From the NCBI GenBank assembly GCA_009829735.1, contig CM020619.1, positions 32,528,283 through 32,592,282 of the forward strand: 64,000 bases of DNA, written 5' to 3'. This DNA is from Pyropia yezoensis (taxonomy: Eukaryota; Rhodophyta; Bangiophyceae; Bangiales; Bangiaceae). Below, in pieces: positions 5,955-62,963 of the stretch. The notes under the pieces are model-generated. The model worked only from the letters and a program-made list of their open reading frames with translations, searched no databases and was not told the DNA's origin. Position 1 is the first letter of the stretch. Every line of letters begins with the position of its first letter. A program made the position numbers and the translations under genes.

Positions 5955-6002
<48 letters not shown>

Positions 6003-36865: not shown

Positions 36866-37334
36866 TGTGGCAAAAACCACTCGCACACACGGCACCCAAG
36901 TTGGGGCGGTGTGCAAGGGCTGCCTCCCGTGTCGGGGGAACCGGAAGAAGTGCAAGTCGCACACACTCTGTCCCTGTTGTGGGGCAAACCCCCCACGGAC
37001 AGACAAGAGGATGGTGTGTGGTCCAACAGTTTCTTGGTCGGGACGGGGACGCAGGGCCAAGCCCCGCTGTCCCTCCCCTTATCCCCCCAGGGTCCACTCA
37101 GAATCTCGCCACTCAGAATCTCCCACCCCAGCACCTGCCCACCGGGCCACACGAAAATTCAAGACGATAAATGCAGAAAACCCTCAAATCCAAGTTGGAT
37201 TTACTACTAAGCTAACTATCCCAAACTTAGGGAATATGGACCCAAATGCAGGGGGAGGAACGGATCAGGCTAGTGGCCTGCCGCCCCTTGCATGGCACGT
37301 GTTGCCCCCCTACCTGGGGGTCAATACTGCCACA
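36866..37334 (-). repeat. Element 1 3' LTR
   Basis: 469 bp, matching 45781-46249. In element orientation it starts TGTGGCAG and ends TGCCACA. It borders the polypurine tract at 37335-37350. Confidence 0.95.
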
Positions 37335-37350
37335 CTCCCCTCTCCTCAGT
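37335..37350 (-). promoter_or_regulatory. Element 1 polypurine tract
   Basis: In element orientation, GAGGAGAGGGGAG directly abuts the 3' LTR. This is the expected plus-strand primer of an LTR element. Confidence 0.8.
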
Positions 37351-37678
37351 TCCGACCGACCCGGTCGGCCCTGTGAGGGGGTGCGTAAACGCACGTCTCG
37401 GCGTTGGGGGGACGCGACTTGCTGTCCCCCCCCCCTTGAGTACGTTACGCTGATGTGGAGGCGGTCACGTTGACCGCCCCTCTCCTCAAGCTTGCCCACT
37501 CGGCAGCTTGCTCTCCTCGGTTCACACCTCACCACCACCACCACTTCTCCTTCACCTTACACGGGGCCGCCCCACGCTGGGGAGGCCACCCGTTTACCCA
37601 CGATCCGAGTCCCCCTCAACTCGAGGCGGGTCTCGTGCCGCGATAGCCAGGGCGCCTCTCCCCAACTTGGGGAGAGCC

Positions 37679-39622
37679 ATGGCGACTCCGGGAGTGGAGA
37701 CGGACTCTCTCGATGAGCGTATGGAGGACACCTCCTACGGTGCAGCGCCTGCCGGGACTTCCGGCGGGGGCTCCGCGATCGCTCCGGGGGATGAGACTCC
37801 CGCGTCACCCGGCTTTGGGTTGACGGCGGGATCTCCCCCGGAGGCGGGACAAGTTGTCCCGCGTGAGGCCTTGGGGCGGTGGTTTTACCCCGCTTGGCCT
37901 CTGTATGAGGAGGGGTTGACTGTTCTTCGCTGTGGCCGACTTGGCGCAGCGATGGGTCGGGTATGGGACCGCCTACGGGAGAAGTATTCCCGTAGGGTCG
38001 GGTTCCCTGCCGGCTTCAGGACGGACCAGTTTGCCTTCCTGGACGACGAGGAGGTCGAGGACGTGCAGCGGGCCAAGGCCATGGTGGACCGCGGGGGAAC
38101 TATCCCGGGTCCCGGCGACTTGCCGACCTTCACTTGGGACGCGGTGGCAACTCGCCCCCCGTACCTTCACGAGGCCGATCCGCACACTCATCACTTTCAT
38201 GTGCGGATGGAGAAGGACTTCCGACGAGGTCCCTACTTGGTGACCTCGGCTCAACTTGAGTTTCCTCAGCAGTCTGCTGCCAGTAAGGAGCAATACTACC
38301 CGAAGAAGCCCGAGTGGTGGCCTCAAGTTGAGGTCCCCTACGGGTTCCCGGCGTTATTGCCACGATTGCTTGACCACTTCGGCTCCGTCATGTTGACGGC
38401 TGGCCCTGATCATCTGGTGTGGGCCATGTTGGCCACCCAGTGGCTCCTCGAGGTCATGTCGACCTGGGTGTCATGTGTTCAGCGGCGGGGGATGCTCTGG
38501 CATCTCCCCCTCCGGCTCATCCAGGGTTTGGAACAGCTCACCCCTCAGCTAGTTGCTGAGGGGTGCTCATCAGGACAACTCACTCTACTTGAGGAGATGC
38601 TCCGCCTCCACAAGTCTATCGAGTGGGAGAGCATCGAGCACAAGTTGCGCCGCCCCACTCGTGGGCCCAAGGACGATGGCGCACTTCGCCAGTTCGTGTG
38701 GGTCGCTCGTGAACTTCACGACGGCCGTGTGGTCCTACGAGAGGGGTTGGGCATCGGGGACTACCCGTATGCCCCGGGGGTGGATCGTCACACTGCGCCA
38801 CCCCCGGACAAGCCCATAGTTATGGCTGTGCCCTCATATGATGACCATATGACTCAACCTACTGCGGGGGCCCCAAGTCAGGGTCGCAGTTACACCCGGG
38901 TACCGCCACCTCGGCGTGCCCCTCCGCTTCCTCCTGTTCCTTTCCAGCCTCACGGGAACATCCCGATCAGCGTGGCCGTGGAGTCATCCACACCGGTGTC
39001 CCCCAACTTCGGGGCCACCCTCCTGACGGTATACCCCAAGTTGGTGTTACCGCCCACGCCTCTAACCTCAAAGATGATGATCACCATGTTGGTGCGCACC
39101 ATTTCCTGGTTGGCCGCGTCGACCGCAACCCTCCAAAGTTCCGAGACTCCTCAACTTGAGGAGCGCGTTCGTACTGCAGTGGCGACCGCGAGTTGCGAGT
39201 CGGTGGCGGAGTTTATGACGGCCGAGTTGGCTCGCATTGGGGCTATTATGCCCCAGCCAGCCCCACTTGGGCGTGGCAAGCGTCGTGCGAGCCGGGCATA
39301 CTCGCCTCCTCGCCGTCGTCGCCGTCACTCGCGGCGCTCTCCCTCCGTGTCGGAAGACGAGTTGTCTTACTCCGTCTCGGAGTCCTCTACCCCGTCGGAG
39401 ACGGAGTCTGTCCAGCGTCTGCGTCGCAAACTTGCGCGCAAGACCAGGCAGAAGAGTAGCCACGGTCGGCGCCACTTGCGCGACCGTGAGGGGCGCGACG
39501 GTTCCGACTTGGAGCCGCCGCCCCTTCCAACGAGTGGAGACCGTTATCGGCGTGGGTCTCGCCGCTCGCCTCCACGTGAGGGCGAGGGCCGTGGGGTGGG
39601 AGAGTCTAGCATGCGTGCCTAG
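37679..39622 (+). CDS. Antisense extra gene of element 1 (aORF), 647 residues
   Basis: It is encoded opposite to gag-pol, between the pol stop (39734) and the 3' LTR, and converges on pol with a 111-bp gap. The start at 37679 has a strong context (gccATGG); a frame open upstream to 37508 is leader. Residues about 1-60 are low-complexity Gly/Pro. About 60-360 is a conserved-looking core (FLDDEEVEDVQRAKAMVD, RPPYLHEADP, KEQYYPKKPEWWPQVEVPYG, LVWAMLATQWLLEVMSTWV, WHLPLRLIQGLEQLT). A Pro-rich linker and a second helical part follow. The last 90 residues are Arg/Ser-rich (SPPRRRRRHSRRSPS), as in nuclear RNA-binding proteins. Core motifs align with the antisense gene of element 2, so this is an element gene and not chance. 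Antisense extra frames are known in some plant Ty3 lineages; function unknown. Confidence 0.8.
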   Translation: MATPGVETDSLDERMEDTSYGAAPAGTSGGGSAIAPGDETPASPGFGLTAGSPPEAGQVVPREALGRWFYPAWPLYEEGLTVLRCGRLGAAMGRVWDRLREKYSRRVGFPAGFRTDQFAFLDDEEVEDVQRAKAMVDRGGTIPGPGDLPTFTWDAVATRPPYLHEADPHTHHFHVRMEKDFRRGPYLVTSAQLEFPQQSAASKEQYYPKKPEWWPQVEVPYGFPALLPRLLDHFGSVMLTAGPDHLVWAMLATQWLLEVMSTWVSCVQRRGMLWHLPLRLIQGLEQLTPQLVAEGCSSGQLTLLEEMLRLHKSIEWESIEHKLRRPTRGPKDDGALRQFVWVARELHDGRVVLREGLGIGDYPYAPGVDRHTAPPPDKPIVMAVPSYDDHMTQPTAGAPSQGRSYTRVPPPRRAPPLPPVPFQPHGNIPISVAVESSTPVSPNFGATLLTVYPKLVLPPTPLTSKMMITMLVRTISWLAASTATLQSSETPQLEERVRTAVATASCESVAEFMTAELARIGAIMPQPAPLGRGKRRASRAYSPPRRRRRHSRRSPSVSEDELSYSVSESSTPSETESVQRLRRKLARKTRQKSSHGRRHLRDREGRDGSDLEPPPLPTSGDRYRRGSRRSPPREGEGRGVGESSMRA

Positions 39623-39733
39623 TTGGCAGCTGCCTTTGTTGTGAGAGTGTGAGGGTTAGGGCTGTAGTTAAAAGCCACTCTGCGTACCACTTCGACTTGA
39701 AGCACTCTCTTGGCACTGTTGCTCGGCCTTCCC

Positions 39734-42700
39734 TCACGTTGAGGGAGGGCTGTTAGGGTCTATCTCATTCCGGGCACAGTACGCCCGGACCTTCTCAGCA
39801 GGAAGGTCCTCCACATACTCCCACGTATCATCCTTGGCTTTGTAGCCAAACCAACGCACCCTCAACATGAGGCGGTAAGTATCCTCATCCCAGCCGTGGT
39901 CGATGAACTTGTCGAACACGTACTCCTGCGGGCCCTGTTTGGCCGCAGGCAGCGAGGGCAGGCGCCACGTTTTCAAAGCACGCGCCCAAGCTGGGTCGCC
40001 TGCAGGCGGTGGTGCAACTTTGACCACGTCCTGTCCGTTCACTGTGCGGACCCCATCGTCACTTTCGATGGTGAAGCGCCGCCCATCAGTACGAAGGACC
40101 TGGTACGGCCCCTTCGTCTGGAACACCAACTTACCCCCAGCTGGGGTGTGTGAGTGGACCAATACCCAGTCACCCTGCTCGGGGACATGCTTGGCGTTGC
40201 GCACCTTTTTGTCAAAGGTACGCTTGTAGCGCTCTTGTGCTTTGTCCATCTCAGCCCTGACTTTAGGGATGAGGTTCTCAAGCCTAGCAGCGAACTCCGC
40301 CTTACTCTCAGTAGGAGTAGGCGTCCTGCCACCATCCTCCCTAGTTGGGAGCGGCCGCCGCTCGGCAATAGACCGCACGCGACGGGGGGTCACAAAAGCG
40401 AGGGGTACTTCCCCAGTAGACGAGTGAACCTGCGAATTGTATGCAGTGGTCAGAATAGAAATGTATTGGTCCCACGTCTTCACGTGCTCACTCACATAGT
40501 GGCGCAGCTGCCTAACAATAGTTTTGTTGAAGCGCTTCACCTGCCCATTAGTTTGTGGGTGGTAGGGGGTGGCATAGTTTGCCTTAACCCCCAACATATC
40601 CAGCACTCCCTGAAACAGTACAGACGCAAATTGCGGTCCATTATCCGATAGTGTACTATCCGGAATGCCATACGCGGCAACCCAGTGATCTAGGAAGGCT
40701 GACACGACCGACATGGCCGTGATCTCTGCCAGTGGGATCGCTCGCGTAAGTTTCGTGAAGCGGTCACAGATGACCAGGAGGTACTGGTTGCCCTCCTCGG
40801 TCACTGGCAGTGGCCCAAGGATGTCCATCGCCAACGCGGCGAAGGGCTCCTTGGCCGGAAACAATAGCATAGCCGTAGTAGGCCGCCGTTCCATCAGACG
40901 GTTCTGTGCACAACTTGTGCAGGCAGCCACCCAACTGTAGATGTCCACCACCATGGACGGCCAGTAGTACCTGGTCCTCAGGGTCTGGTACAGTTTACTA
41001 GACCCCAGGTGTCCACCCGTGGGAGCGTTGTGCTCCCTCTCAAGGATACTGTCCTTGAGGGATGCGGGGACGACAAGTTGTTCGGTCCCCTGGAATACCC
41101 CCCTCCTCATGAGGAGGCCATCGTCTCCCAGAAAGAACCGCGTCTCCGCCACTGTATCCAGTGTATCCCTCTGCGACTTGCAGAAGGGATCCTCGGCCTG
41201 GGCCTTCACCACTTCGTCCAGGGACAGGGGCAAGTACTTCGTGTTCCCTGGCGCCTCGGGATTCAACGCCTGACCCGAGCGCGTGACTACCCCCACGATG
41301 GGGATGTCCTCATCGACTGGGGTGGTGTCCAGTCCCTCGGTAGGTACCCGAGAGAGGCCGTCGGCAAGGGCATGTTGCCTGCCAGGTCGGTACTCAATAT
41401 CAAAGCTGAAGGGTGCAAGTCGCACCCTCCACCGGTTGAGACGAGTGTTTGTACAGTCCGTCTTGAAGATGAACTGCAACGCGCGGTGGTCACAGCGGAT
41501 GAGGAACTTCTCACCCTCTAGGTAGTGACGAAGTGACGTCACCGCCCACACCACTGCGAGTCCTTCCAACCCGGTGACTCCGTAGTACTTCTCGGCCGAG
41601 TTTAGCCCCTTGCTGAAGTATCCCACCGGCAAGTACTCATTGTCCGGCTGCTGCTGAAGCAACACACAACCAAGTTGGTCGTAGCTAGCGTCCACATCCA
41701 GGATGTAGTGGCCTCCCAACCTGGGAATAGCCAGGATAGGGGGCTTCAGCAGAAGGTCCCGAAGAGTCTCAAAGGATTCCTGCTCCACCCGACTTGGGGG
41801 AGGCAGGTTCTTCGGTAGCGTTGAGCTCACTAACTCATTCAACGGCTTGGCCACCTTGGCGAAGCCCTTGGTGAAACGTCGGTACACGTTACACATCCCG
41901 AGGAAGCTCCTCATCTGGGTCTGGGTCCGGGGGTACTGAGCCTTACGGATGGCCCTCAAGTTTTTCTCGTTGACACTGAGACGCCCCGGACGGACAACAT
42001 GTCCCAAGTACTCCACCTCTTGAGTGAAGAGGTGGCACTTACTCGCCTTCAGTGACACACCCGCGTCAGCAAGTAGCTTGAACACCTGGCCAAGATGGCC
42101 AATGTGTTCCTCCGGACTTCGCGAGAACACAATGATATCGTCTAGGTACACGAGACAGATCTGCCACCGTACTCCGGCCAGAATCATGTCCATAGCTCGC
42201 TGGAAAGTTGCCGGCGCGTTACACAGGCCAAACGGTAGACGCTTGCACTGGTAGGTACCACAGTGACAGGTAAAGGTAGTTTTATGCCTGTCCTCCGGGG
42301 CAATGGGAATTTGCCAGTACCCCGCGTTACAGTCCAGGGTAGAAAACACGTTTGCCTTCCCCAGAGAGTCCAGACAGTCGTCCATCCGAGGTAGGGGATA
42401 ACTGTCCTTCACCGTGCTCTCGTTGAGCTTACGGTAGTCGATACAGAACCGGGGGGTCCCATCGACTTTGGGGACGATCACCACCGGACTCGCCCACTCG
42501 GCGTTGCTGGCCTCGATCACATCGAGGGCCTCCATGCGAGCAACTTGCTCCTTAACGAGGGCCCTTGAACGGGGTCCTCCCCTATACGGTTGTTGGCGTA
42601 TAGGGGGCGCACCGGGTTTCAACTCGATCTGGTGTTGGGTAGCTCTCATGAGTCCCAATTGACCATCCCACAACTTGTGATATTGGTCCAAGAGGCGTTC

Positions 42701-43717
42701 AACTTGAACCCTCAACCTGGGTGGAACACCCTCCATGTTTACATGGGGCCGAGGAGAGGCGGCCGACTTGGCTTGATGCTTCTCCTTTCCGGACTTCGGG
42801 TCGCTACTTGCGCCCGCGTTGAGGGTGACCGCTACTACCGGTCCCTCGAGTTGGTCGATATAGCCGAACTTGGCCCCCGACTTGAAGTACTTGGGCGACG
42901 AGCTCAGGTTCATCACCTGGATCCTCCACGGGACTCCGGCTTTGGAGTCCATCGTGCCAAGGGCAACATGCACTTGGTGCTTGCGAGCAAGACGGGGGTT
43001 AGGGTGCACCAACCCGTTCCCCGCATAATCAGTTACAACATCCACGTGCGCCACCGAGTTGGGGGGCAACGTGACCTTACGGGCTAAACGCAGAGTAGCA
43101 GTAAACCCTTCCCTCACAGAACAAACAGGCTTCGACTGTGAAACTGTCACAGGAGCCACAGACTTTCCCTTACCAAGGATGGGGATGGCTTTCCCATTCA
43201 TCAACCTGACCCAATACTCAGGGCCACAAATCAAAGGCACTTGTGTTACGACATAAGGGGTACCCAGAAGCAGGGGTACCGATATATTCTCAACTACACC
43301 ATAGGTCACGTCGACCTCATGGGTCCCCAACCGAGTTGGTAGGGTCACGGCACCAACGATGGGAAGTACCCCACCATTGATATCAATCAGGTGGTCAGCT
43401 TTAGACTTCCAGCGTTGGAGCTTCATCTCCTTTGGTAATAGCGACTTGCGTATCAAGGAGGCTCCTGACCCGGTATCAAGTACGATACGGGCACAACAGG
43501 CGCGGCCGGGGGCAAGTTGCACCCGTCCAGCCACCTGGAAGTTCTCACCCGTCAGCACCGCGATGACCCGACGTGGGTTTACGATCTTGGGAAGTCCCAC
43601 CCGAGGTGGGCGGACTCCCTTAGGTCGCCGCAGTATCCGACACGGTTGGTTCGTCCTCTTGGCCCACTTGGCCGAGGCTGCCGTTGTGAGCTTCGGACGA
43701 CCAGCTCCAACGGTCAT
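39734..43717 (-). CDS. pol: Element 1 Pol: protease, RT, RNase H, integrase, chromodomain
   Basis: 1327 residues from the ATG at 43717. That ATG overlaps the gag stop (ATGA), but expression is more likely by -1 frameshift at 43720-43726. Protease active site DTGSG is at residues 81-85. RT carries the catalytic YLDD at 524-527, with FCIDYRKLNESTVKDSYPLP upstream. RNase H follows (LDVDASYDQLGC, then LEGLAVVWAV, RCDHRALQF). Integrase has the HHCC zinc region (REHNAPTGGH … CTSCAQN), the catalytic core with DNGPQF near residue 1025, and HPQTNGQVKRFN. In the last motif Lys replaces the usual Glu of QVERFN, so the catalytic Glu of the D,D(35)E triad appears to be missing or shifted. A C-terminal chromodomain (LRVRWFGYKAKDDTWEYVED) classes it as a chromovirus. 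The frame is uninterrupted. Confidence 0.95.
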   Translation of the reverse strand: MTVGAGRPKLTTAASAKWAKRTNQPCRILRRPKGVRPPRVGLPKIVNPRRVIAVLTGENFQVAGRVQLAPGRACCARIVLDTGSGASLIRKSLLPKEMKLQRWKSKADHLIDINGGVLPIVGAVTLPTRLGTHEVDVTYGVVENISVPLLLGTPYVVTQVPLICGPEYWVRLMNGKAIPILGKGKSVAPVTVSQSKPVCSVREGFTATLRLARKVTLPPNSVAHVDVVTDYAGNGLVHPNPRLARKHQVHVALGTMDSKAGVPWRIQVMNLSSSPKYFKSGAKFGYIDQLEGPVVAVTLNAGASSDPKSGKEKHQAKSAASPRPHVNMEGVPPRLRVQVERLLDQYHKLWDGQLGLMRATQHQIELKPGAPPIRQQPYRGGPRSRALVKEQVARMEALDVIEASNAEWASPVVIVPKVDGTPRFCIDYRKLNESTVKDSYPLPRMDDCLDSLGKANVFSTLDCNAGYWQIPIAPEDRHKTTFTCHCGTYQCKRLPFGLCNAPATFQRAMDMILAGVRWQICLVYLDDIIVFSRSPEEHIGHLGQVFKLLADAGVSLKASKCHLFTQEVEYLGHVVRPGRLSVNEKNLRAIRKAQYPRTQTQMRSFLGMCNVYRRFTKGFAKVAKPLNELVSSTLPKNLPPPSRVEQESFETLRDLLLKPPILAIPRLGGHYILDVDASYDQLGCVLLQQQPDNEYLPVGYFSKGLNSAEKYYGVTGLEGLAVVWAVTSLRHYLEGEKFLIRCDHRALQFIFKTDCTNTRLNRWRVRLAPFSFDIEYRPGRQHALADGLSRVPTEGLDTTPVDEDIPIVGVVTRSGQALNPEAPGNTKYLPLSLDEVVKAQAEDPFCKSQRDTLDTVAETRFFLGDDGLLMRRGVFQGTEQLVVPASLKDSILEREHNAPTGGHLGSSKLYQTLRTRYYWPSMVVDIYSWVAACTSCAQNRLMERRPTTAMLLFPAKEPFAALAMDILGPLPVTEEGNQYLLVICDRFTKLTRAIPLAEITAMSVVSAFLDHWVAAYGIPDSTLSDNGPQFASVLFQGVLDMLGVKANYATPYHPQTNGQVKRFNKTIVRQLRHYVSEHVKTWDQYISILTTAYNSQVHSSTGEVPLAFVTPRRVRSIAERRPLPTREDGGRTPTPTESKAEFAARLENLIPKVRAEMDKAQERYKRTFDKKVRNAKHVPEQGDWVLVHSHTPAGGKLVFQTKGPYQVLRTDGRRFTIESDDGVRTVNGQDVVKVAPPPAGDPAWARALKTWRLPSLPAAKQGPQEYVFDKFIDHGWDEDTYRLMLRVRWFGYKAKDDTWEYVEDLPAEKVRAYCARNEIDPNSPPST

Positions 43718-45660
43718 TCGTTTCCCGCCGACTTGGCGTCCGAATCTGAGGGCGAAGGGGACGACGACGAGTCCGAGGACGACGTGTCCGCCCCCTCCGT
43801 CGAGGGGGTGGCGACCGCCACCACTGGTCGAGACCCACCCTCGCGGCGTGAACGCACTTCGTTCGTAGCCGACTTCTTACTCGCATTCCTAACAAGTTGT
43901 TGGATGCGTTTACTCAACTTGGGGCAATCATATGCCCAGTGACCATCGGAGTTGCAGTTCCAACACCGATGATCAGTTCCCGGAGGGGTCTTCCCAACTG
44001 GGGAAGACGACGAGGTACCTTGGGAAGTTCCCACGGCAGCTACCACCCTCTCCTTGCGGATTCGGCGTGCCTCTCGCAACTCTCTGGCCTGGCGCGCCTC
44101 TTCCCGTTCCTTGGCCAACTCGGCCTGACGCTCCTGGCGTTGTTCCTCCCGCAACTTGCGGTAGGCCTCGCCTCTGCGGTAGGCGAACCTAGCTTACTCG
44201 GCCAGGGTCGCCCGGGCAGTGTTATGCTCCCGGGTCTCCATCCGGACTGACCAATGGAGTCCCTCCACAAACCGACTCTTCACCACAGCTTGTGGATGAA
44301 GAAACCCACAAAGATTGTTGAGCTTACGGACTCGCTCCGCAAAGGACAACTCGTCTTCCGCCTCTTCCTGATGGGCTTGCGTAAACTCCTCGACTTGAGA
44401 AGCCAACGCCGCTTCATCAACCATGGCCCTCAACAACCAGTTGACGAGCTCCAAATAGGACGTCACCTCCCCAGCGCCTCCACTTGAGGAGCTGGGCATG
44501 ACGGACATAAGTTCTGTCCGCAGGTCTCCCTTCGTAAACTCCTGTAGCATGTAAAAAGCCATGCCTTCACTTATGGCATTGTCGTCACAGGCTTTTGTGA
44601 AACGACGTCGGAACTCAAAGACACGGAGGGGGGGAGTTCCATCCCACTCCGCTTTGTGCCCAAAAGAGTGAAGTGCATTCTTTTTGGCACGGCCCATGGC
44701 TCGGGCCTGGTCAGGACCATACGCCACCGACTTGTTGTGGAGGGCGTAGGTCTCACAGTCAAAGATCCTCTGGTAGACCGGGTTGGCTACCTGGATCTTG
44801 GGCGGCACCTCACGTTGAGGGAACAGCCGCTGGGGCACTGGGGTAAGTTCACCCTCAGTGCCTGTAGTCCGGCGCGGCGCGCTTGGTGTAGCCGCCGGGG
44901 TTGTCGGGGGGAACTCCCCCATGAAGGGCGTACGCCCCACCGAGTATGGTGTGGCTCCCTCGTTGGGAGTCACAGGGGTCGCCCCCTGTTCGGGGCGACC
45001 CGAGATAGGCGTCAGGGGGGATTCCCCCTGCGCCTGCGGGCTCGAAAGCCCCAATCCGGTCTGGACATTAAGGCCATCTGGCAAACTCGCCACAATCTGA
45101 TTCAGAATAGTATTCGTCATTGTGACCACCAGGTCCGGCAAAGTCTGCCGCAACACATTGGTCGCCTCCCGACGGACAGTTTCCGCGAGGAGTGGATTGA
45201 CGACTCCAGTTGAGTCTCGGTCCGCCTCCGGGAGTCCACCTGAGGGGTAACCACATTCCTCAGGGGCCTCAACCGGGGGCATGGGCGCGAGCCCATCGCC
45301 GACCAACGGAGGTAAGCCGTCCTCCGAAAGCCTAGTTGGCGACGGCTCCATGCCAAAGTTGGCTCCAACCCGAGTGGAACCCGCGGGGACAGTCCTCACC
45401 CCTTGGGACGTTCCCGTTGAGTATACCACGCGGTGGCCAGACTTCGGCCCACCCACATCAGAAGTGTCACCCGAGTGAACTCCCGACTGAGTCGGGGTGG
45501 CCTGTTGCCCGCCCGCACTTCCAGTCCTGCTGGCTTGAGGGACCTCTAGTCCCTCTGCGACCCCAGGTAAACCCACCTGTGTCTCACCAGTATTCAAAGG
45601 CACTGAAGTACGTGCGTCACCCGTGTACTCCCCGGACGACGGGGGGTCCGAGCTAGCCAT
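43714..45660 (-). CDS. gag: Element 1 Gag, with one in-frame TAA
   Basis: It starts at the ATG at 45660 (ggccATGg) and ends TGA at 43714. A single in-frame TAA at 44194-44196 divides it into a capsid-bearing part (488 codons) and a nucleocapsid part. Both parts are in the same frame, so this is a nonsense codon or readthrough site and not a frameshift. The N-terminal half is Pro/Gly/Thr-rich. The capsid region contains FEFRRRFTKACDDNAISEG, ELVNWLLRAM and EDELSFAERVRKLNNLCGFL, typical of Ty3 Gag. After the stop comes a charged helix (REEQRQERQAELAKEREEAR), then a CCHC zinc knuckle CWNCNSDGHWAYDC at about residue 566. Element 2's Gag is uninterrupted over the same span, so the stop is probably a recent mutation or a base-call error. 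Confidence 0.9.
43720..43726 (-). promoter_or_regulatory. -1 ribosomal frameshift site GGGAAAC (element 1)
   Basis: Zero-frame phasing is G GGA AAC, followed by one codon (GAA) and the gag stop TGA. Pol lies in the -1 frame and is open from here. The heptamer fits the XXXYYYZ rule exactly, and the same site in the same position occurs in element 2. Confidence 0.75.
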
Positions 45661-45759
45661 GTTGGCTAACGATCCGTATGACACGGTCCAAGTCCACCGT
45701 TCCTCTGAGACAGAGGGCCCCCTACACCCGGGTGCACCCGGAGGTAAAGTTTACCTCTG

Positions 45760-45778
45760 ATCCCCTGCTGCTCCACCA
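45760..45778 (-). promoter_or_regulatory. Element 1 primer-binding site
   Basis: In element orientation, TGGTGGAGCAGCAGGGGAT begins two bases after the 5' LTR. It starts TGG, as expected for pairing with a tRNA 3'-CCA. It is identical to the site in element 2. The implied tRNA would have a 5' acceptor strand of about GGAGCAG; I cannot name it. Confidence 0.75.
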
Positions 45779-45780
45779 AA

Positions 45781-46249
45781 TGTGGCAAAAACCACTCGCA
45801 CACACGGCACCCAAGTTGGGGCGGTGTGCAAGGGCTGCCTCCCGTGTCGGGGGAACCGGAAGAAGTGCAAGTCGCACACACTCTGTCCCTGTTGTGGGGC
45901 AAACCCCCCACGGACAGACAAGAGGATGGTGTGTGGTCCAACAGTTTCTTGGTCGGGACGGGGACGCAGGGCCAAGCCCCGCTGTCCCTCCCCTTATCCC
46001 CCCAGGGTCCACTCAGAATCTCGCCACTCAGAATCTCCCACCCCAGCACCTGCCCACCGGGCCACACGAAAATTCAAGACGATAAATGCAGAAAACCCTC
46101 AAATCCAAGTTGGATTTACTACTAAGCTAACTATCCCAAACTTAGGGAATATGGACCCAAATGCAGGGGGAGGAACGGATCAGGCTAGTGGCCTGCCGCC
46201 CCTTGCATGGCACGTGTTGCCCCCCTACCTGGGGGTCAATACTGCCACA
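45781..46249 (-). repeat. Element 1 5' LTR
   Basis: 469 bp, apparently identical to 36866-37334. It is followed on the plus strand by target duplication GTCGC (46250-46254) and the resumed host exon. Confidence 0.95.
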
Positions 46250-53315: not shown

Positions 53316-53886
53316 TGTAGCATCCCTGGCCCCGACTTGGCGCCGACCCGGGACTGTAACCAGAGGGCACCAGGTGCCAGAACACGCCCGCCGTGTGGCG
53401 ATGGTTGGCGGCCGTGGCCCGTGCCCGGCACTGGGATGCGGTGGACTACGCTATCCACACGCGAGAGAGGGATTTCTGATGTGTTTTTGCATATTTGTGA
53501 GGGACTTGATTTGAGAGAATTTGAGTGTGAGATTAGTGAGTGGGAATAGAATTAGTAGTGATAGTGGCCCCCGACCTGACGAGGTTAGACTCGGGTCGGG
53601 GCCACTCGGGGTTATGGGGGGGCTACCTGGCCAACGTGCCGGGGTTCCCCCAGATGCACGTTAAGAGGGACAGCGAGGCGCCCTCGGCCCGCGCCCTCAG
53701 GAAAAAGACAACTGCGCGTTTGCTTTCCTCTTCCCCGTGTGCACTACCGTGCGTATCTGTTTGCTCTGCGAGCAGGCACGTGAGGCAACAGGCATACCAT
53801 TCTCGTAGTTCCCCTTTCTGCGTTACCTGTCCCTTTCCCCCGAGGGATATTGACACGTGTCTGAGAGGATCGAGTTTTATACCACA
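53316..53886 (+). repeat. Element 2 5' LTR
   Basis: 571 bp. It contains a strong hairpin at 53564-53605 (GTGGCC…CCGACC pairing with GGTCGGGGCCAC). It matches 62393-62963. Confidence 0.95.
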
Positions 53887-53890
53887 TATT

Positions 53891-53909: not shown

Positions 53910-54095
53910 TGGAGTGTTTGAGAAGAGACATTTGGGAGCAGCGGTTGCGTTGTTCCTGTTCTGTCTTTTTCTGTGGTTTGGGAATTATTTGCACCCGTTC
54001 ACGGGAACCCCATTCCTGGCTCTCCAACCCCTCTCTTGTGGTCTTGCGATCTTTGGACACGCAGGCAACTGGACTGTGGCTGTCAAGAGACCAAC

Positions 54096-55856
54096 ATGGC
54101 TACCCTCCCTGGCACGACGGTGCCCGAAGGGGTAGACCCCGCGTCCCTTGACGCATCCCTGGTCACCGCGGGGGACGGTGCCCAACCCGGCGTTCTCCCT
54201 ACGGGTGAAGCAGACCTGGGCGTGACATCCGGTAGTGGACTGGAGTCTACAGGCGGCCAAGTACCGCCTGCTCCCGTTCCTCCGGCTGTTCCTCCTGTGG
54301 GAGCCACCCCGGGGTCAACGGCGTTCGAGTCCGCTCGCAGCAGACGTCTCCCTCCTGTCGGTTCTACTCCTCAACCTCCAGGGATAGCCCCTGGTGTGTT
54401 TACTCCTGGACCCACACATGGCAGCTGGGTGTATACACCTCTTCCTGTGGGCACTAGCAGTGCCGGAGGCACCGCTATGACTGGTTCTACGGGTCTTCCT
54501 GAGACTTCGACTCCTGGGGCCGGCCAAGCTTTTCCTCCCCTTGCGTCCTATGGAGCGGGGAGCTCTAAGACCGGTAACCGGAGCAGCCGTAGGCGTCGGC
54601 GTCGTCGCCGTCGCTCTAGCACCAGCGAGACCAGTTCCTCCAGCTCTGAGGAGGGATATGACTGGGATGCATCTCCCGGTCCTACCCGGCGCAGGCTAGT
54701 CGAGTTCGACTTCCCTGCCCACCAAGTGGGAGATGCCACCCTGAACAAGGTCACGTATTGGGGTAACTACCGGCTGGAGAACCAAGACCAAGGTTACACC
54801 CGGAAGATGGCCAAGAAGATGGCATCCCTGAGCCGGCGAATGCAGCCGAGTTTGTGGGGACATCCTAAGTTTTCCGGGAAGAGACCGGCGCTTATCTTTG
54901 CCTTCCTGCGCCGGTTTGTCAAGGCATGCAATGACAACGATGTGTCCGAGGGCAAGGCTCTCTATCTCCTGGTTAACTTCATGACCGGAGAAGCGGAACA
55001 GCGGTTTGCACAGGTTCTACCAGACTCTGCCGGGCATATTGTTGGACGTACCGTCGCGAGTTATCCGGAGGCGGTCAACTGGCTCCTGTCCAACTACGCA
55101 GACGCGGACTCCCTGCGTAAGGCAGTCGGTAGGCTGAACCGGGCAACCATGGAGAGACAAGAGACTCCAGAGGCGTTCGCCCGTCGTGTCCGGGCGATGA
55201 GCGATGCTTGTGGCAACGTTTACCCTGAGGACAGGCTCAAGATGATCTTCTCGGAGGGGCTTCCTGAATATCTTCAAGTGGATGCGGAGAACTACAACCA
55301 GGAACATCAAGAACATACCTTCCAGCAGTTGATGGCCTATACCCAGGGCAAGCACCGGCAAGCCAAGGCCCTCCAGGCTTATATGGTATCAACTCCCAAG
55401 CCGTTGTCGCGAGTTCGTCCCGGACCCGACAAGTATAAGGGAGGTGATAACCCTGTACCGGTACTCGCAGTTGGCGAGGCCTCACCCATGGAGTCAAGGG
55501 ACAAGTGGGGCGGCTTCGTCTCTAAGGAGCAACCTTCCCTGGTCGCCCCCAAGCAGGTCAGGAACCAGCGGTTCCGGTCTTGTTGGCTGTGCCAGAAGGA
55601 GGATCACATGTCCTACCAGTGCCCGACCATTCCCAAGGACCTCCAGGAAAAACTCAAGCGTCAAGGACTGGTGTTTGCAAAGGCGGTCAACTGGGCTGAC
55701 CGGCGGGCACCCTCCAAGATGGACAAGGCACAGGTACATGCCATCCGAGTGGCAACCTTACAGAGTATCACGGAGGCTCTGACAAAGGAAGCTCCTACGG
55801 ACTTTGACCTGGAGACCGAAACCTCTAAGGACTCCTCGGACCCGGGAAACGAGTAG
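54096..55856 (+). CDS. gag: Element 2 Gag
   Basis: 586 residues, uninterrupted, starting at the ATG at 54096 (accaacATGg). Residues 1-160 are Pro/Gly/Thr-rich, and an Arg/Ser patch (RSSRRRRRRRRRSSTSETSS) lies at about 170-190. The capsid part resembles element 1 (FLRRFVKACNDNDVSEGKAL, EAVNWLLSNYADADSLRKAV, ETPEAFARRVRAMSDACG). A CCHC knuckle, CWLCQKEDHMSYQC, lies at about 496-509. The C terminus is acidic. It ends PGNE-TAG just after the GGGAAAC slippery site. Confidence 0.95.
   Translation: MATLPGTTVPEGVDPASLDASLVTAGDGAQPGVLPTGEADLGVTSGSGLESTGGQVPPAPVPPAVPPVGATPGSTAFESARSRRLPPVGSTPQPPGIAPGVFTPGPTHGSWVYTPLPVGTSSAGGTAMTGSTGLPETSTPGAGQAFPPLASYGAGSSKTGNRSSRRRRRRRRRSSTSETSSSSSEEGYDWDASPGPTRRRLVEFDFPAHQVGDATLNKVTYWGNYRLENQDQGYTRKMAKKMASLSRRMQPSLWGHPKFSGKRPALIFAFLRRFVKACNDNDVSEGKALYLLVNFMTGEAEQRFAQVLPDSAGHIVGRTVASYPEAVNWLLSNYADADSLRKAVGRLNRATMERQETPEAFARRVRAMSDACGNVYPEDRLKMIFSEGLPEYLQVDAENYNQEHQEHTFQQLMAYTQGKHRQAKALQAYMVSTPKPLSRVRPGPDKYKGGDNPVPVLAVGEASPMESRDKWGGFVSKEQPSLVAPKQVRNQRFRSCWLCQKEDHMSYQCPTIPKDLQEKLKRQGLVFAKAVNWADRRAPSKMDKAQVHAIRVATLQSITEALTKEAPTDFDLETETSKDSSDPGNE
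55844..55850 (+). promoter_or_regulatory. -1 ribosomal frameshift site GGGAAAC (element 2)
   Basis: Zero-frame phasing is G GGA AAC, then GAG and the gag stop TAG. The -1 frame is open from here to 56126 through the protease active site. Position and phasing match element 1. Confidence 0.75.
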
Positions 55857-58800
55857 GGCACGCGCTCTCCCCAATTGTCTTCCCGAATCTCCAACGGCAG
55901 GGTACTTCTACCCGTTCTCCCCTTGCGTGCCGGGAGAAAGGACGGCAGTTACCTGCTCAACCGGTAGCCGCCTGGACACCCTGTTTGTTCAAGGGGACCT
56001 TGCTCGTCCTGCGTAAGGAAAACCTCAAGATTAATGCTCGTATGCGTGTGGGGGATAGCCTCCCCCAAGCTGTTACGCCGGTGGTCGACACGGGAGCCGG
56101 ACCAAGCGTCATCACTGAGAACCTGTAACCTCCGGGCTGGCGTCGACGTGCCTGGAGAGCGCCTACCAGAACCCATATTGTAGACGCATCAGGTCAAACC
56201 CTACGACCGCTTGGCCGTCTTCCCGTCGCCATCTATGTCAACAATGAACCAATGCTTTTTCCCTTTCTAGTAGTCAAGACCTTATCAGTCCCCCTCATCC
56301 TAGGCTGGGACTTCCAGAAGCAGCATGTCAAGAGCATCCTACCCGGAGAAGGAAAGGTGCAGTTCAACCATGGGTTTGTGTCACCAGTGCTGGAGCACCT
56401 GGACACCAAGGTTCGTGTGGCCAAGAACCAGAAGGAACGCATCCCACCCTCTACCTTGACCCTCATCAAACCGGTGCTCCTACCTCCTCGCTCGGAGACC
56501 AAGGTTCAAGTCACGACCCGGACTGCAGGTCAATGCCTGATCTACGGACGCAAGGAATTTCTGGCGAAACACCGATTATACCTAGCCCACGGACATCACA
56601 AGAAGGTGGAAAGGCACACCCCGTTCTCGGTGCTGATCGTCAACGTGAGCCGGAAGCCAATAACCCTCGCCAAGGGCACTCGAGTTGGTACAGCAGAGCC
56701 TTACCGGGGGTCCGCCCGCGCTATGAGCAAGGAAGACCTCTTGAACCTGCAACAAGAGCTGGCATCCAACTTGACGGCCTTAGACGTATCTCCGGAACAA
56801 GAGCAGGCTGGCCGTACTACTCCGAAGCCCGAACAAGCACCGCCCGGGATGCCGAAGGTCAACCAAGAAAACGTCCCTCCCGACTTGAAGGAGGCACTGG
56901 AGAAGCTTCTCCAGGAATATCGGCACCTGTGGTCTGGAGAGCTGGGCAAGATAGACGCCACCCTACACCGGATTCAACTCAAGCCAGATGCCAAACCAGT
57001 GCACATGCAACCATACCGGGCTGGACCTCATCGCCGGGATGAGATTGAGAAGCAGGTTAACAAGATGCTCAAGATGGATGTTATCGAGCCGTCTGATGGC
57101 GAGTGGGCTTTCCCGGTGGTAGTCGTCCCGAAACCTGGCGGTCACTTCCGTTTCTGCGTTGACTACAGACGCCTGAACGAGATGACAGTCAAGGATGTAT
57201 ACCCGATACCCCGGATGGATGATTGCCTCGACTTTCTTGGTGATGCCACCCTCTTCTCGACGCTGGATTGTAATGCCGGTTACTGGCAGATCCCTCTGGC
57301 TGACGAGGACAAGGACAAGACTACCTTCACGTGCCACCTGGGACTATTCCGGTGCAAGCGTCTCCCTTTTGGTCTCACTAATGCTCCGGCAACCTTCCAG
57401 AGAGCCATCGACATCATCCTGTCGGGGCTAAGGTGGAGAACATGTTCGGTCTACCTGGACGACATCATCGTTTTCTCCAAGACCCCAGCGGAACACCTGG
57501 AGCACCTTCGAGAGGTCCTGGCCCTCCTGTCCAAGGCTGGAGTCACCCTCAAGGCCGAGAAGTGCCACCTGTTTGAGACTGAGGTGGAGTACCTGGGGCA
57601 CGTGCTGAGTCCGGGGGAGCTCCGAGTCAATGAGAAGAACATCAAGGCCCTCCGACATGCACGGCAACCTAAAACCCAGACGGAACTCAAGAGCTTCCTG
57701 GGTATGTGCAACGTCTACCGCCGGTTCGTACGGGACTATGCTCTGATTGCCCGGCCCTTGACCAAGCTTACTAGCAAGAAGCTTCCAGCACAACTCCCGG
57801 TGTTCGACGAGAAGCAGACAGCAGCCTTCGAAGAGCTCAAGAAGCGCCTGACCACCACTCCAGTACTGGCGTTACCCAAGCGGGAGGGCCAGTTTGTTCT
57901 GGAGACTGATGCCTGTGGTGTCCAGGTGGGGTGCTCACTACTCCAGCAGCAACCTGATGGGCACTTCCTCCCGATAGGCTACTACAGTCGCGTCTTGACT
58001 CCAGCCGAGAAGAACTATTCCACGACCGAGCGCGAGTGCTTGGCGGTCGTCTGGGCTTGCTTCCTGTTACGTCCATATCTTGAAGGACAAGAGTTCCTCA
58101 TCCGGACGGACCACGCCAGTCTAAGGTGGCTGCTATGCATGGACAGCAGTCAAGGAAGGGTCGCCCGGTGGCGCCTACGCCTTTCGGAGTTCAAGTACAA
58201 GGTGTGCACCAGAGCAGGGAGGGAGCACCACTGCGCCGACACCATGTCCCGGCTGGAGACTCCTGCAGCCGATACCGGTCCTATCCCGGAGGAAATACCT
58301 TGCTTTATCCTCCCGAATGTCGGACGTGGCTGGCACGCTCCCCTGTACGAGACACCTGAAGCTCATCAACCCGTAACCATTCACCGGATGCTGGAGGCAC
58401 AATTGACGGACCCTCAATGCTTGGAGCTTCGCCACCAAATGGACCTGAACCGGAACAGTCGCTTCTCCGAGTCTACAGACGGACTCCTGGTACGCGTGTC
58501 ACCCTTCGATGGGGCAACTCAAGTTTACGTACCCCGAAGTCTACGAGCTGACATCCTACGCCTGGAGCACTCGTCTCCCCAGGCCGGACATCCTGGTATC
58601 AATCGGATGTATGCTTCCATGAGACGACACTATTACTGGGAAACCATGGCCAGTGACGTCCATAAGTGCCTGGAGGCTTGTGTTTCTTGTGCAAGGAACC
58701 GGTTGTCCCAGAGGAAGAAGACTTCTAAGCTACGCCTATTCCCTGCGGCGGAGCCCTTTGCAAGCATAAGCATGGACATCCTGGGGCCCCTACCTGAAAC

Positions 58801-59944
58801 ATCCAGTGGCAACATATACCTGCTCATCATTTGTGACCGGTTCTCCAAGTTCACTCGAGCAATCCCGCTGAGGACCATCACGGCTCTGGATGTCACGTCA
58901 GCCTTCTGCGAGTACTGGATAGCTGCCTATGGCCCTCCAGACTCCGTCTTAACCGACAACGGTCCCCAGTTTGCATCCCTGTTCTTCCAAGGAGTCTGTG
59001 ACCTGATGGGCATCAAGAACTTGTACACCACGACGTACCACCCTCAAACGAACGGCCAGGTGGAACGATTCAACCGGACCCTGGTGGACATGCTACGGCA
59101 CTACGTGGAGGAGCACCAAGAAGACTGGGACGAGCTCCTGGCTGTCCTCACTCTAGCCTACAACTCCCGAGTTCACCGGACAACGGGAGTCGCTCCACTC
59201 GACTTTGTCACCCCGAGGCGGCTGACCAACTTCTCCCTGGAAAGAATACCGGATGGTCTCCAGCCTGCACTGAAGTCAGGTCCCAAGGCAAAGGATGAGT
59301 TCCTGGAACAACTAAAGCTCCTGCTCCCAAGAGTCAAGGAGTCAATCTCAAAGACCCAGGAGCGATACAAGCGGGACTATGACAAGGGCGTTCGGGAAAA
59401 GAACAAGGAACTGGGTGGTGGTGACTGGGTTTTTGTGGACAACCATAGCAAGACCCGGGGGAAGCTGGACTCTAAGACGGATGGACCTTATGAGATTCTT
59501 AATACGGATGGCTGGACCTCCCTTCTAGACGTGGATGGTTCCCCGTACCGGGTGAGCAGCGACCATGTCACCCGAGCTCCACCGCCAAGCCAACGGGACT
59601 TGACCCGGCGTAAGCGAGCCGCAGTACCCTGGCTATCCCAAGAAGAAGGCCGGGAATATGTCTACGTCAAGTTTGTCGACCATGCCTGGAGAGACGGGCG
59701 CCTGTATCTGCGAGTACGCTGGTTCGGTTTTAACCCGGCAGATGATACATGGGAACCCTCAAACCGGCTACCCATCGCGGACGTCTGTGCCTACAAGCGA
59801 CGGAACGGGATTGAGGGCACTCCAGTGGCCAGAGCCGGCAAGATTCTGGAGTCGGACACGGAGGAGGACCAAGAGGACGGGGCCAACCAAGACCCTCGGG
59901 ACGAGACGAGCTCACACGCAACGGATGCGGAACAAGAGGATTGA
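55851..59944 (+). CDS. pol: Element 2 Pol with one in-frame TAA in protease
   Basis: Read in the -1 frame from the slippery site. The protease motif DTGAG starts at 56087. An in-frame TAA (56126-56128) follows nine codons after that motif, and the same frame reopens at once and continues to 59944. The 1230-codon part from 56252 holds the end of protease (VPLILGWDF), RT (VDYRRLNEMTVKDVYPIPRM, YLDD at 57452), RNase H (LETDACGVQVGC, ERECLAVVWACF, RTDHASLRW), integrase with HHCC region (LEHSSPQAGH … CVSCARN), core DNGPQF (58955) and HPQTNGQVERFN with the catalytic Glu present, and a chromodomain (LRVRWFGFNPADDTWEPSNR). The TAA would abolish protease and all downstream Pol unless read through, so it is a disabling mutation or an error. 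Confidence 0.9.
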
Positions 59945-60089: not shown

Positions 60090-62207
60090 CTACTCCCGGC
60101 GCGGACGCTGAGCCGCGGGAGTGTCCTCCGGCGCTGCCTCCGCGGTACGACGGGAACCGGAGGAAGACGGGATGACGTAGTGCGGTGGACGCGGCGCATC
60201 CCGGTATGACGCCATCGGAGTAGTACCAGTAGTTGCCGGTGGCTCCCGCTCATCCAGATATGTCCGTCGGCGCCGCTGGAAGCCCGTGAAGGTCTCTGAC
60301 CACTGCTGGGCCAAGCCATGCCGCGTCAAAGTCGCCAGAAGTTCGCCAACCACCGGGTTGTTCGACATCTGACCGCTATCTGCGCAAGCAAACACCCGGT
60401 CGACCACGTTGTTCAAGACGCTGGCGTAAGTACCCAGCACCAGAGAAGACCCGACGCCTTCAACCTGCACCGGAAGACGACCCAGCTGGTCTTCAATCAT
60501 ACCGACGTCGTACTGGTCGCATGTCGGACCACCTTGATTCAGGTACCAGTCAGGCACCCGGAAGCGGGTAAGGCGCAGAGTCGGCGCCGGAATCTCGAAC
60601 CGCCCCGAGCACGACACTACCGGACGGTCCACAACGGCCCCCGAAACCGGAGTACCCAACTCCAGCGGAGGCACAGCGCCGCCGGCGTTGGAAGAAGGCG
60701 TCCGAGGCAGAGCGGCCGGAGTAGTCGGCGACCGAACGGCCACTCCCAGACTCGCCGCAGACAGGCGCGGTGCCGGAGGAGCTTGAAGTACCGGCACAAC
60801 CGGAACAGGGCGTGAACGCGCCGGCGACGGTTGAGGCGAGGCCACCGGGGCGACAAGTGCAACGGGAGGAAGCGGAGCCGCCGCAGACGCCCGACCGACC
60901 GCCGCGGCCCATCCCGACTCCTGCACCGGCGGCCCAACTGGCAGAAGATCAAGGGCGGCCGGAGCAGGAAAGCTACCTAGCTGCGGCAACGCCGGAAGCG
61001 GCGTCGCCAGCTGCACCTTGGCCGGAGAAGACTGGTAGACCACCTGCGCCCAACCGAAGCCATCCCGACGCGGGCGGTTCTGGTCGGCAATCGCGTTCAA
61101 GAAGTTCCGGTCATGCACCGGCACCAGACGCCGGAAGTCGATCATCGCCTGGAAGAGCTCCTTGTACTCCTCGTCCTGGCTGCACAGGAAGTCGACGGTC
61201 AACTTGTCGACAATCCAGACCATCAGGAGGTCAGGGAGAAACCAAAGCCGGTTGGACACCAAGACCTCGTGAAGCCAGTGATTGGCCGCCAAGACTGTCA
61301 TCTCGGACGTGTACATCATGTACGGGATTGAGTGGAAGAAGCCCTTGATCGACGCCTGAGTCAAGGCGTCCAAGAAGTACCAGGTGCAAGGGATGCTGGA
61401 AGGAGCAAACCCGACCGGGATCTCGACTTCCTGCTGCTGCGGGATGACCTTGGGGTAGTACGCCGCCCGGTTAGCCTTGTCCAGCTTCCAGAACTCCTGA
61501 TGATTGCAGCTCACGATGAAGTCACGCTGGCGGCCGCGTCGCTCGCCTTGCTCCCGCGCCGGCGACAACTTGGAGTACTTCCGGGTCAGGAAAGGCGGCT
61601 CCAGAGCGACCATGCTCGGACGGGGGTCGCAGTTCAAGCTTCCCGACCCCTTGAGCGCCTCGTCCCAGACCTTGAGCGCCCGGTGGACGTACCCCTCCTC
61701 CTCCGGCCACCGGAGAACGGACGCGGACACGCGTCGCTCGGTCAAGGGTAGATCCAGCACCAGCGCGAAGGGGAGATCCTCCAGACGAGCAACCCAAGAG
61801 GAACCCGAGAAGCTCTGGGAGCGGTCTTGTGCCAGGCGCATCTGGTCCGCCATGTGAAGACGAACCTTGTCCATCTCGGTCAAGACCCCGCGCTGGAGTT
61901 CCTTGCGCCAGAGGCCCAAGCAGTCCTGCTGGCACTGGGCCGCGCCGGCGTTGCCGACCACCGTGGAGTAACGCCGGGCCGCCAGAGGGTCCTGCCCAAG
62001 AAGCATCTCCGGGAGACCCTCCGGGGGGGCCTCGACCGGGTGCATCGCGGAAGCCGGGGGAACTCGATCTGTCCCCGCCGTGGCGACCGATGCCGGCACC
62101 GACACCCGAGGAACCGGAGGCAGGAGAGGGGCGCGACTACCCGAGTTCTCCTCCGCAACACTCGCCGCCGGAACCACGGGCCCAGCCTGGATCTCGGAAC
62201 TGGACAT
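60090..62207 (-). CDS. Antisense extra gene of element 2 (aORF), 705 residues
   Basis: It is encoded opposite to gag-pol between the pol stop (59944) and the 3' LTR, and converges on pol with a 145-bp gap. I start at the ATG at 62207 (MSSSEIQAG), about 185 bp from the LTR. The frame is open further back into the LTR, which is unlikely to be coding. Residues about 70-400 form a core with DPLAARRYSTVVGNAG, EEEGYVHRALKVWDEAL, LEPPFLTRKYSKL, RAAYYPKVIPQQQEVEIPVG, LAANHWLHEVLVSNRLWFLP and LFQAMIDFRRLVPV. A long Pro/Ala linker, then a second part (LGTYASVLNNVVDRVFACAD) and a short basic tail follow. Several core motifs line up in order with the element 1 antisense protein (PP-F/Y-L, YYPK, VE-I/V-P, a helical Trp-Leu segment). 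Both are 650-700 residues. Confidence 0.8.
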   Translation of the reverse strand: MSSSEIQAGPVVPAASVAEENSGSRAPLLPPVPRVSVPASVATAGTDRVPPASAMHPVEAPPEGLPEMLLGQDPLAARRYSTVVGNAGAAQCQQDCLGLWRKELQRGVLTEMDKVRLHMADQMRLAQDRSQSFSGSSWVARLEDLPFALVLDLPLTERRVSASVLRWPEEEGYVHRALKVWDEALKGSGSLNCDPRPSMVALEPPFLTRKYSKLSPAREQGERRGRQRDFIVSCNHQEFWKLDKANRAAYYPKVIPQQQEVEIPVGFAPSSIPCTWYFLDALTQASIKGFFHSIPYMMYTSEMTVLAANHWLHEVLVSNRLWFLPDLLMVWIVDKLTVDFLCSQDEEYKELFQAMIDFRRLVPVHDRNFLNAIADQNRPRRDGFGWAQVVYQSSPAKVQLATPLPALPQLGSFPAPAALDLLPVGPPVQESGWAAAVGRASAAAPLPPVALVAPVASPQPSPARSRPVPVVPVLQAPPAPRLSAASLGVAVRSPTTPAALPRTPSSNAGGAVPPLELGTPVSGAVVDRPVVSCSGRFEIPAPTLRLTRFRVPDWYLNQGGPTCDQYDVGMIEDQLGRLPVQVEGVGSSLVLGTYASVLNNVVDRVFACADSGQMSNNPVVGELLATLTRHGLAQQWSETFTGFQRRRRTYLDEREPPATTGTTPMASYRDAPRPPHYVIPSSSGSRRTAEAAPEDTPAAQRPRRE

Positions 62208-62378
62208 ACCGTCCAGACTCCGGGGGAACGAGAGGGCCAAGGTGAAGGAGCGAAGGGGGGGGGCAGAACCGGAGCAGGTGATCGTAACCGGGGTGAAGAC
62301 GCTCGACCTCGGCACCGGTGTGGACGTGCTCGAGGCTGTGCACGGTGGCACCTGGTTCGGCCCGAGGACGTGCCGGGC

Positions 62379-62392
62379 TAGGGAGGGAGCTA
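62379..62392 (+). promoter_or_regulatory. Element 2 polypurine tract (weak)
   Basis: AGGGAGGGAGCTA directly precedes the 3' LTR. It is purine-rich except near its end. Confidence 0.55.
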
Positions 62393-62963
62393 TGTAGCAT
62401 CCCTGGCCCCGACTTGGCGCCGACCCGGGACTGTAACCAGAGGGCACCAGGTGCCAGAACACGCCCGCCGTGTGGCGATGGTTGGCGGCCGTGGCCCGTG
62501 CCCGGCACTGGGATGCGGTGGACTACGCTATCCACACGCGAGAGAGGGATTTCTGATGTGTTTTTGCATATTTGTGAGGGACTTGATTTGAGAGAATTTG
62601 AGTGTGAGATTAGTGAGTGGGAATAGAATTAGTAGTGATAGTGGCCCCCGACCTGACGAGGTTAGACTCGGGTCGGGGCCACTCGGGGTTATGGGGGGGC
62701 TACCTGGCCAACGTGCCGGGGTTCCCCCAGATGCACGTTAAGAGGGACAGCGAGGCGCCCTCGGCCCGCGCCCTCAGGAAAAAGACAACTGCGCGTTTGC
62801 TTTCCTCTTCCCCGTGTGCACTACCGTGCGTATCTGTTTGCTCTGCGAGCAGGCACGTGAGGCAACAGGCATACCATTCTCGTAGTTCCCCTTTCTGCGT
62901 TACCTGTCCCTTTCCCCCGAGGGATATTGACACGTGTCTGAGAGGATCGAGTTTTATACCACA
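62393..62963 (+). repeat. Element 2 3' LTR
   Basis: 571 bp, matching 53316-53886. It is followed by target duplication CGGAG at 62964-62968. Confidence 0.95.

Follow-up and report, generated by a model that had tools for sequence, protein, structure and literature searches.

Homologous antisense reading frames between pol and the 3' LTR in a Ty3/gypsy retrotransposon lineage of the red alga Pyropia yezoensis

Antisense accessory open reading frames (ORFs) of LTR elements have been described mainly in plant elements of the Tat/Retand type, where their function is unknown (PMC7264820, PMC11963269). As characterised in PMC11963269, Retand elements are non-chromoviruses, occur there only in Eudicotyledons and Liliopsida, have a pol–LTR region of 2.9–6.6 kb with tandem repeats in about half of them, and carry antisense ORFs of the TRP28 type (PF04195) that lie between pol and the 3' LTR and are kept across families. 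Similarly placed and oriented genes are listed in a review (PMC7264820) for maize Grande (gene23), rice RIRE2 and PvRetro13, and for Grande gene23 an antisense promoter of its own and a nuclear protein are reported there. Outside plants, the brtn gene of the fungal Botrytis element Boty/BcGypsy1 is described as an antisense gene in the pol–LTR slot (PMC7264820, PMC8365987), while HBZ of the retrovirus HTLV-1, an antisense gene with its promoter in the 3' LTR (PMC7264820, PMC11963269), offers an analogy only.

The locus considered here shares this layout. Within the window, that is, the whole 64,000-nucleotide stretch of P. yezoensis DNA that was analysed, two elements each carry a long antisense ORF (aORF) in the slot and orientation of gene23, RIRE2 and PvRetro13, to which it is likened by layout alone; the likeness to brtn rests on published descriptions. 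The host is a red alga, whereas those of Grande, RIRE2 and PvRetro13 are land plants. Like the Retand TRP28 ORFs, the aORFs belong to Ty3/gypsy elements, lie antisense between pol and the 3' LTR and recur across families, but their proteins have no PF04195 match, and the accompanying pol matches a chromodomain profile, in contrast to the non-chromovirus pol of the Retand lineage proper.

Two complete elements and their antisense frames

Both elements are complete Ty3/gypsy LTR retrotransposons, with paired LTRs, TG...CA ends, a target duplication, gag and pol (Table 1). Their LTRs end in TGT...ACA, and their 5-bp target duplications are perfect (GCGAC for element 1, CGGAG for element 2). Pfam places RT, RNase H, H2C2 and rve in sequence in both pol frames, the Ty3/gypsy order, while the protease gave a weak match in element 1 pol (E=0.041) and none in the element 2 frame. 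The gag frames were named by position in both elements; a zinc knuckle was matched in that of element 2 only, below threshold, and the element 1 gag frame had no Pfam match. The two pols are 47% identical over 1205 aligned positions, and a 21-base primer-site sequence, offset by two bases, is common to both elements.

Table 1 Features of elements 1 and 2, in positions of the window
Feature	Position	Strand	Basis
Element 1	36866-46249	-	
Element 1 3' LTR, 469 bp, identical to own 5' LTR	36866..37334	-	self-BLAST, 100% over 469 bp
Element 1 leader, 3' LTR to aORF1 start, 344 bp	37335..37678	+	coordinates
aORF1, 647 aa, ATG start, antisense to gag-pol	37679..39622	+	translation
aORF1 conserved core, residues 141-330 (YYPK; VEVPxGF; W/L segment, predicted helical)	38099..38668	+	alignments
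aORF1 C-terminal block (predicted helical), residues 441-525	38999..39253	+	alignment
aORF1 Arg/Ser-rich tail, residues 526-647	39254..39619	+	absent from aORF2-4
Element 1 pol with RT, RNase H, integrase and chromodomain; protease match weak	39734..43717	-	Pfam
Element 1 chromodomain, pol C-terminus	39779..39913	-	Pfam Chromo E=8e-4, under cut-off
Element 1 gag frame	44194..45684	-	open frame; named by position before pol
Element 1 5' LTR	45781..46249	-	self-BLAST
Element 2	53316-62963	+	
Element 2 5' LTR, 571 bp, identical to 3' LTR	53316..53886	+	self-BLAST
Element 2 gag frame, zinc-knuckle-like motif	53973..55856	+	open frame; Pfam zf-CCHC E=0.019, under cut-off
Element 2 pol	56252..59944	+	Pfam
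Element 2 chromodomain, pol C-terminus	59675..59770	+	Pfam E=4e-4, under cut-off
aORF2, 705 aa, antisense to gag-pol	60090..62207	-	translation
aORF2 C-terminal block (predicted helical), residues 546-650	60258..60572	-	alignment
aORF2 conserved core, residues 186-370	61098..61652	-	hhalign
Element 2 leader, aORF2 start to 3' LTR, 185 bp	62208..62392	-	coordinates
Element 2 3' LTR	62393..62963	+	self-BLAST

The surroundings of element 2 include a 3.8-kb duplication (47196-50972 and 51473-55254, 98.9% identity) that takes in flank, an element 2-type LTR (49041-49611) and 5' gag; this extra LTR is 99.3% identical, compared with 100% between the element's own LTRs, and the arrangement may reflect post-insertion duplication plus conversion or an assembly effect. 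Elsewhere, the window holds a 1.26-kb inverted repeat (17909-19167 and 22546-23790, 90% identity), a 638-aa frame with a Hint module (4940-6856, plus strand, E=6.7e-18) and a 784-aa frame with ankyrin repeats (13383-15737, minus strand).

A first reading of the window from its letters alone (the sequence-only reading) had proposed frames of 650–700 residues opposite to gag-pol in the pol–3' LTR slot, and the two proteins of Table 1, both converging on pol, bear this out. The stops of pol and aORF are 111 bp (element 1) and 145 bp (element 2) apart, and the aORF starts are separated from the 3' LTR by 344 bp in element 1 and 185 bp in element 2. Read on the minus strand, 37679-39622 contains 14 stops, so the frame of element 1 is a plus-strand one. 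With a G+C content of 63–65% in the slots and long spurious frames common in the window, such frames might be artefacts, shadow ORFs of a G+C-rich genome. However, the open frames that hold aORF1 and aORF2 (722 and 766 codons) exceed those of all 1000 order-1 simulations per element (longest 449 codons for element 1 and 636 for element 2), and in sense orientation the slots hold frames of at most 195 and 209 codons, which leaves no long sense ORF to shadow. As the chance argument is weak in a G+C-rich genome, the case rests on homology and selection; these, and the relatives carried by a second species, refute a shadow ORF, which we consider hardly credible.

The 344-bp leader of element 1 is proposed as the putative site of an antisense promoter or 5' UTR. 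Among four such leaders, the only exact 9–12-base word common to three was a C/T run. The antisense strand of the 3' LTR of element 2 reads TATAAAA (62958-62952, minus strand) at its outer edge, and element 1 has no TATAAAA box at the equivalent place.

Homology, selection and the five pol families

The homology of aORF1 and aORF2 is supported by both pairwise and profile comparisons. BLASTP aligned them at 23% identity over 166 aa (E=4e-8), and a profile of families 1 and 3 (family 1 being that of element 1, family 2 that of element 2) matched family 2 in hhalign with a probability of 94.5% (E=7.8e-8, 179 columns), the score of 67.2 lying well above the best of 100 local shuffles (31.6) and the reversed sequence (23.6, probability 0.9%). 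An origin of the aORF from gag was tried with element 2 gag and rejected, as hhalign found no similarity to the aORF profile (0.7%). Among the ordered motifs listed by the sequence-only reading, YYPK, VE-V/I-P-x-GF and the Trp/Leu segment align in families 1, 2 and 3 and less well in family 4, and the C-terminal block aligns more weakly. Its suggestion that the Arg/Ser-rich tail hints at function does not carry over to the proteins in common, since this tail occurs in element 1's family only, being absent from aORF2, 3 and 4, and is among the two least constrained segments of aORF1.

What had been described as a homologous pair proved to be part of a larger set of antisense homologues in this red alga: an aORF follows pol in families 3–5 of the genome too (107.5 Mb in 11 contigs searched), giving five pol families in all. 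Besides the window elements, antisense ORFs between pol and the 3' LTR were found at loci L037, L038, L041, L044 and L045, with gaps of 128 bp (L037) and 479 bp (L044) after pol. The aORF of family 3 (L037, L038, L041) is about 638 aa long, and the L037 protein aligns with aORF1 at 36.6% identity across 287 aa (E=3e-43), while the aORF of family 5 (L045) is 46% identical to aORF3 over 622 aa and has 3 stops. The 815-aa aORF of family 4 (L044) is the weakest case. It matches aORF3 in tblastn at E=2e-4 and, used as the query, finds L046 (family 1 type, E=1e-5) and L037 (E=8e-5), with L038, L040, L045, L048 and L050 at E=0.29 or worse; searched against L044, aORF1 gave nothing at E<=10 and aORF2 no better than E=7.5. 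In hhalign, aORF4 nevertheless reached a probability of 88.6% (E=2.7e-6) in an alignment of 325 columns that takes in the C-terminal block, and its score of 56.4 was approached by none of 100 local shuffles (best 29.1; reversed 22.1).

Two loci, L047 and L051, are mosaics and were left out of the comparison of slot and orientation. L047:1-3901 combines family 4 pol (97.6% to pol4), some 500 bp without a match and a fragment of a family 3 aORF (98% identical to L037 in DNA), and is either a recombinant element or a nested insertion. L051:1-4001, where a family 3 type aORF fragment adjoins part of a pol close to pol1 (89%) together with a frame resembling gag1 (95%) on the opposite strand, probably consists of nested pieces.

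The family also extends beyond P. yezoensis. Protein searches preceding a core-restricted one were insensitive and returned one protein each, whereas the core as query returned eight relatives, four of which are Pyropia vietnamensis records. These four are 55–64% identical to the aORF3 core, three of them look nearly alike, and all are annotated as 'hypothetical protein', which makes the result relevant to annotation.

The history of the aORF agrees with that of pol. Integrase identity among the five families ranges from 73% (families 3 and 5) down to 33% (families 4 and 5), family 4 being 33–41% identical to the others, and the pol tree, (f4 and outgroups,(f2,(f1,(f3,f5)))), joins families 3 and 5 (support 1.00), then 1 (0.995), then 2 (0.81). 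In the aORF tree, families 1, 2 and 4 stand apart from families 3 and 5 and P. vietnamensis (0.98), and families 2 and 4 are joined (0.94), the position of family 5 within the family 3 group being weakly supported (0.45). This agreement bears on the possibility that the aORF is a captured host or viral gene, or what is left of another transposon, that travels along as a passenger. Such a capture would fit the missing similarity to element 2 gag and the unexplained origin of the frame, and is possible as an ancient origin; a present-day passenger, however, should decay, whereas the aORF is constrained and follows pol in its tree, and we hold the passenger explanation to be unlikely.

Copies of the aORF are numerous and largely intact. 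Scoring the best candidates, so that all counts are lower bounds, gave at least 68 full-length genome matches for aORF1 (stops in 0 of 68 scored), at least 63 for aORF2 (a stop in 1 of 63), at least 150 for the aORF2 core (a stop in 1 of 150) and at least 150 for the aORF3 core (stops in 13 of 150, 8 of these 13 being under 88% identical to the query). Many copies are near-identical: 30 loci differ from L005 by 0–22 changes across 1941 bp. The L034 element has an open pol frame of 1346 codons yet a truncated aORF, so not every copy requires an aORF in cis; the aORFs of L040 and L041 are also truncated or frameshifted. At L034:1414-3500 the aORF retains its C-terminal part only, and the remainder resembles G+C-rich repeats by eye.

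The aORF is under purifying selection at the protein level. Pairwise Nei-Gojobori dN/dS was below 1 in 17 of 18 pairs, which share a query and include several copies with stops and are hence neither independent nor all drawn from active elements: 0.22–0.36 for aORF1 (5 pairs), 0.12–0.26 for aORF2 (3 pairs), 0.31–1.05 for aORF3 (7 pairs, the 1.05 coming from L040, a truncated copy with 22 changes) and 0.38–0.71 for aORF4 (3 pairs, the 0.71 coming from L054). Pol or integrase of families 1, 3 and 4 gave 0.07–0.49 (14 pairs), and was exceeded by the aORF value in four of the five pairs of family 1 and in all three of family 4. Third codon positions took most of the changes in 14 of 15 pairs, 13 of them at p<0.05; this set excludes the pairs of aORF3 with L040, L047 and L051. 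When segments were pooled over four aORF1 pairs (without L005), three aORF2 pairs and two aORF4 pairs (without L054), leaving out aORF3, dN/dS in the core was 0.19, 0.05 and 0.23, respectively, and in the C-terminal block 0.28 for aORF1 and 0.11 for aORF2; neither the C-terminal block (0.56) nor the linker (0.90) of aORF4 differed from neutral. Within aORF1, the Pro-rich linker (0.21) is constrained like the core, the Arg/Ser tail (0.56) less so, and residues 76-140 (0.77) are indistinguishable from neutral; the aORF2 tail (0.33) was not significant. Profile similarity, recurrence in other copies and dN/dS below neutrality, on which the sequence-only reading depended, have all been found.

These values also bear on an RNA-level explanation, in which the antisense RNA pairs with sense RNA and feeds small-RNA control while the open frame is incidental. 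Antisense regulatory RNAs are known in some LTR elements (as reviewed in PMC7264820), and the convergent layout could bring the 3' ends of pol and aORF transcripts into overlap. An incidental frame, however, would not be protein-homologous across families at 18–45% identity, nor does it fit the third-position excess and the dN/dS of 0.12–0.36 in all 8 aORF1 and aORF2 pairs. We regard an incidental frame as quite improbable; antisense RNA may have a second role beside the protein.

The aORF protein and its proposed role

Few clues to the protein come from known families. None of nine aORF proteins matched Pfam at E<=10, PDB sequence searches with aORF1, aORF2 and the profile gave chance-level matches only, and scans of viral and prokaryotic contigs gave no confirmed match. 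For PF04195 (TRP28), matches were found in 0 of 9 aORF proteins at E<=10, with filters that drop most weak matches, and nowhere in the genome. A possible loose likeness of the aORF core to the TRP28 pattern is unsupported by these profile searches and serves as a lead only. By layout, the elements are aORF-3R-like; with no PF04195 match and a chromodomain in pol, they are not Retand/TRP28 members. AlphaFold2 models (mean pLDDT 32 for whole aORF1, 49 for its core) are too weak to assign a fold, and at this low confidence they place helices in the core and the C-terminal block.

An envelope-like or movement-like protein, as proposed for post-pol ORFs elsewhere, could be expected in this slot, which is that of env in retroviruses, and the core has hydrophobic helical segments. 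However, the highest 19-residue hydropathy mean in six aORF proteins was 1.22–1.54, so that by hydropathy no transmembrane-grade segment is present, and the env-like ORFs described in PMC7264820 are in sense orientation, making an env-like protein on the other strand very unlikely.

We favour, with a probability of roughly 0.6, one protein-coding aORF gene family that occupies the pol–3' LTR slot of one chromodomain-bearing Ty3/gypsy lineage in Pyropia and encodes an antisense-expressed accessory or regulatory factor. An antisense mRNA would arise from a promoter located either in the 185–344 bp leader or in the 3' LTR, and its 3' end would lie near the end of pol. The encoded protein would consist of a Pro-rich N-terminus and a linker around the core and a C-terminal block, both predicted, at low confidence, to be helical. 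By analogy with Grande gene23 it may serve the cycle of its own element in an accessory or regulatory capacity, working like the antisense accessory genes of Grande/Retand elements; the likeliest route, which is a guess from the same analogy, would be contacts with nucleic acids or proteins through which sense expression or nuclear steps are tuned. Such a protein could also act in trans between copies.

Host lineage, origin and significance

The assignment of the aORF elements to the chromoviruses, made by the sequence-only reading, holds at the level of profiles rather than of single sequences. Single-sequence Pfam Chromo scores stay under the curated cut-off in families 1–3, and family 4 pol alone had no Pfam Chromo match at E<=0.1, but a profile of the pol C-termini of four families has an HP1 chromodomain as its best match (E=6.7e-9) and, at E<=0.1, picks up 44 PDB sequences, most of which carry the names of chromodomain proteins. 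From these comparisons 'chromovirus' seems a reasonable label, its phylogenetic context being the in-genome integrase tree alone. An earlier survey, working with the data of its time, detected no retroelements with a chromodomain in P. yezoensis (PMC3350952). L033 and L036, which belong to a further, abundant group of Ty3 elements, have Chromo and Tf2-type SH3 domains that score over the Pfam cut-off.

Three further Ty3 families of this genome (L031/L052, L032/L053, L035/L036) have integrase and host in common with the aORF elements and differ from them in having no aORF match. Comparison of two copies of each places the end of similarity at about 0.86, 0.93 and 1.0 kb beyond pol, which leaves no room for an aORF, and tblastn with the four aORFs against L031, L032, L033, L035, L036, L052 and L053 gave nothing better than E=0.08. 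These three families form one lineage (integrase 63–86% mutually identical, 22–28% identical to the aORF lineage), to which L033 is related through an integrase 97% alike to that of one of them (as a relative of L032). The integrase loci are the best 150 of 3595 candidates, and other lineages may be missing from this comparison.

On balance, we lean, by little, towards the view that the red-algal chromodomain lineage gained its antisense gene independently of the flowering-plant Tat/Retand elements, before the present families split, and has kept it since, which would make it an ambisense lineage with a new regulatory protein family. The kind of gene is already known, as Boty provides an antisense gene outside plants (PMC7264820). 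Judged by titles and abstract openings, the open-licence literature yielded no antisense genes in red-algal LTR elements, and the protein family, the host group and the chromodomain context appear new within the literature searched.

The occurrence, in a Retand-like slot, of an aORF with no detectable relation to TRP28 makes the role of antisense genes in retrotransposons testable in a second system and suggests that this layout evolved more than once. If the independent gain is true, antisense accessory genes arise repeatedly in LTR elements.
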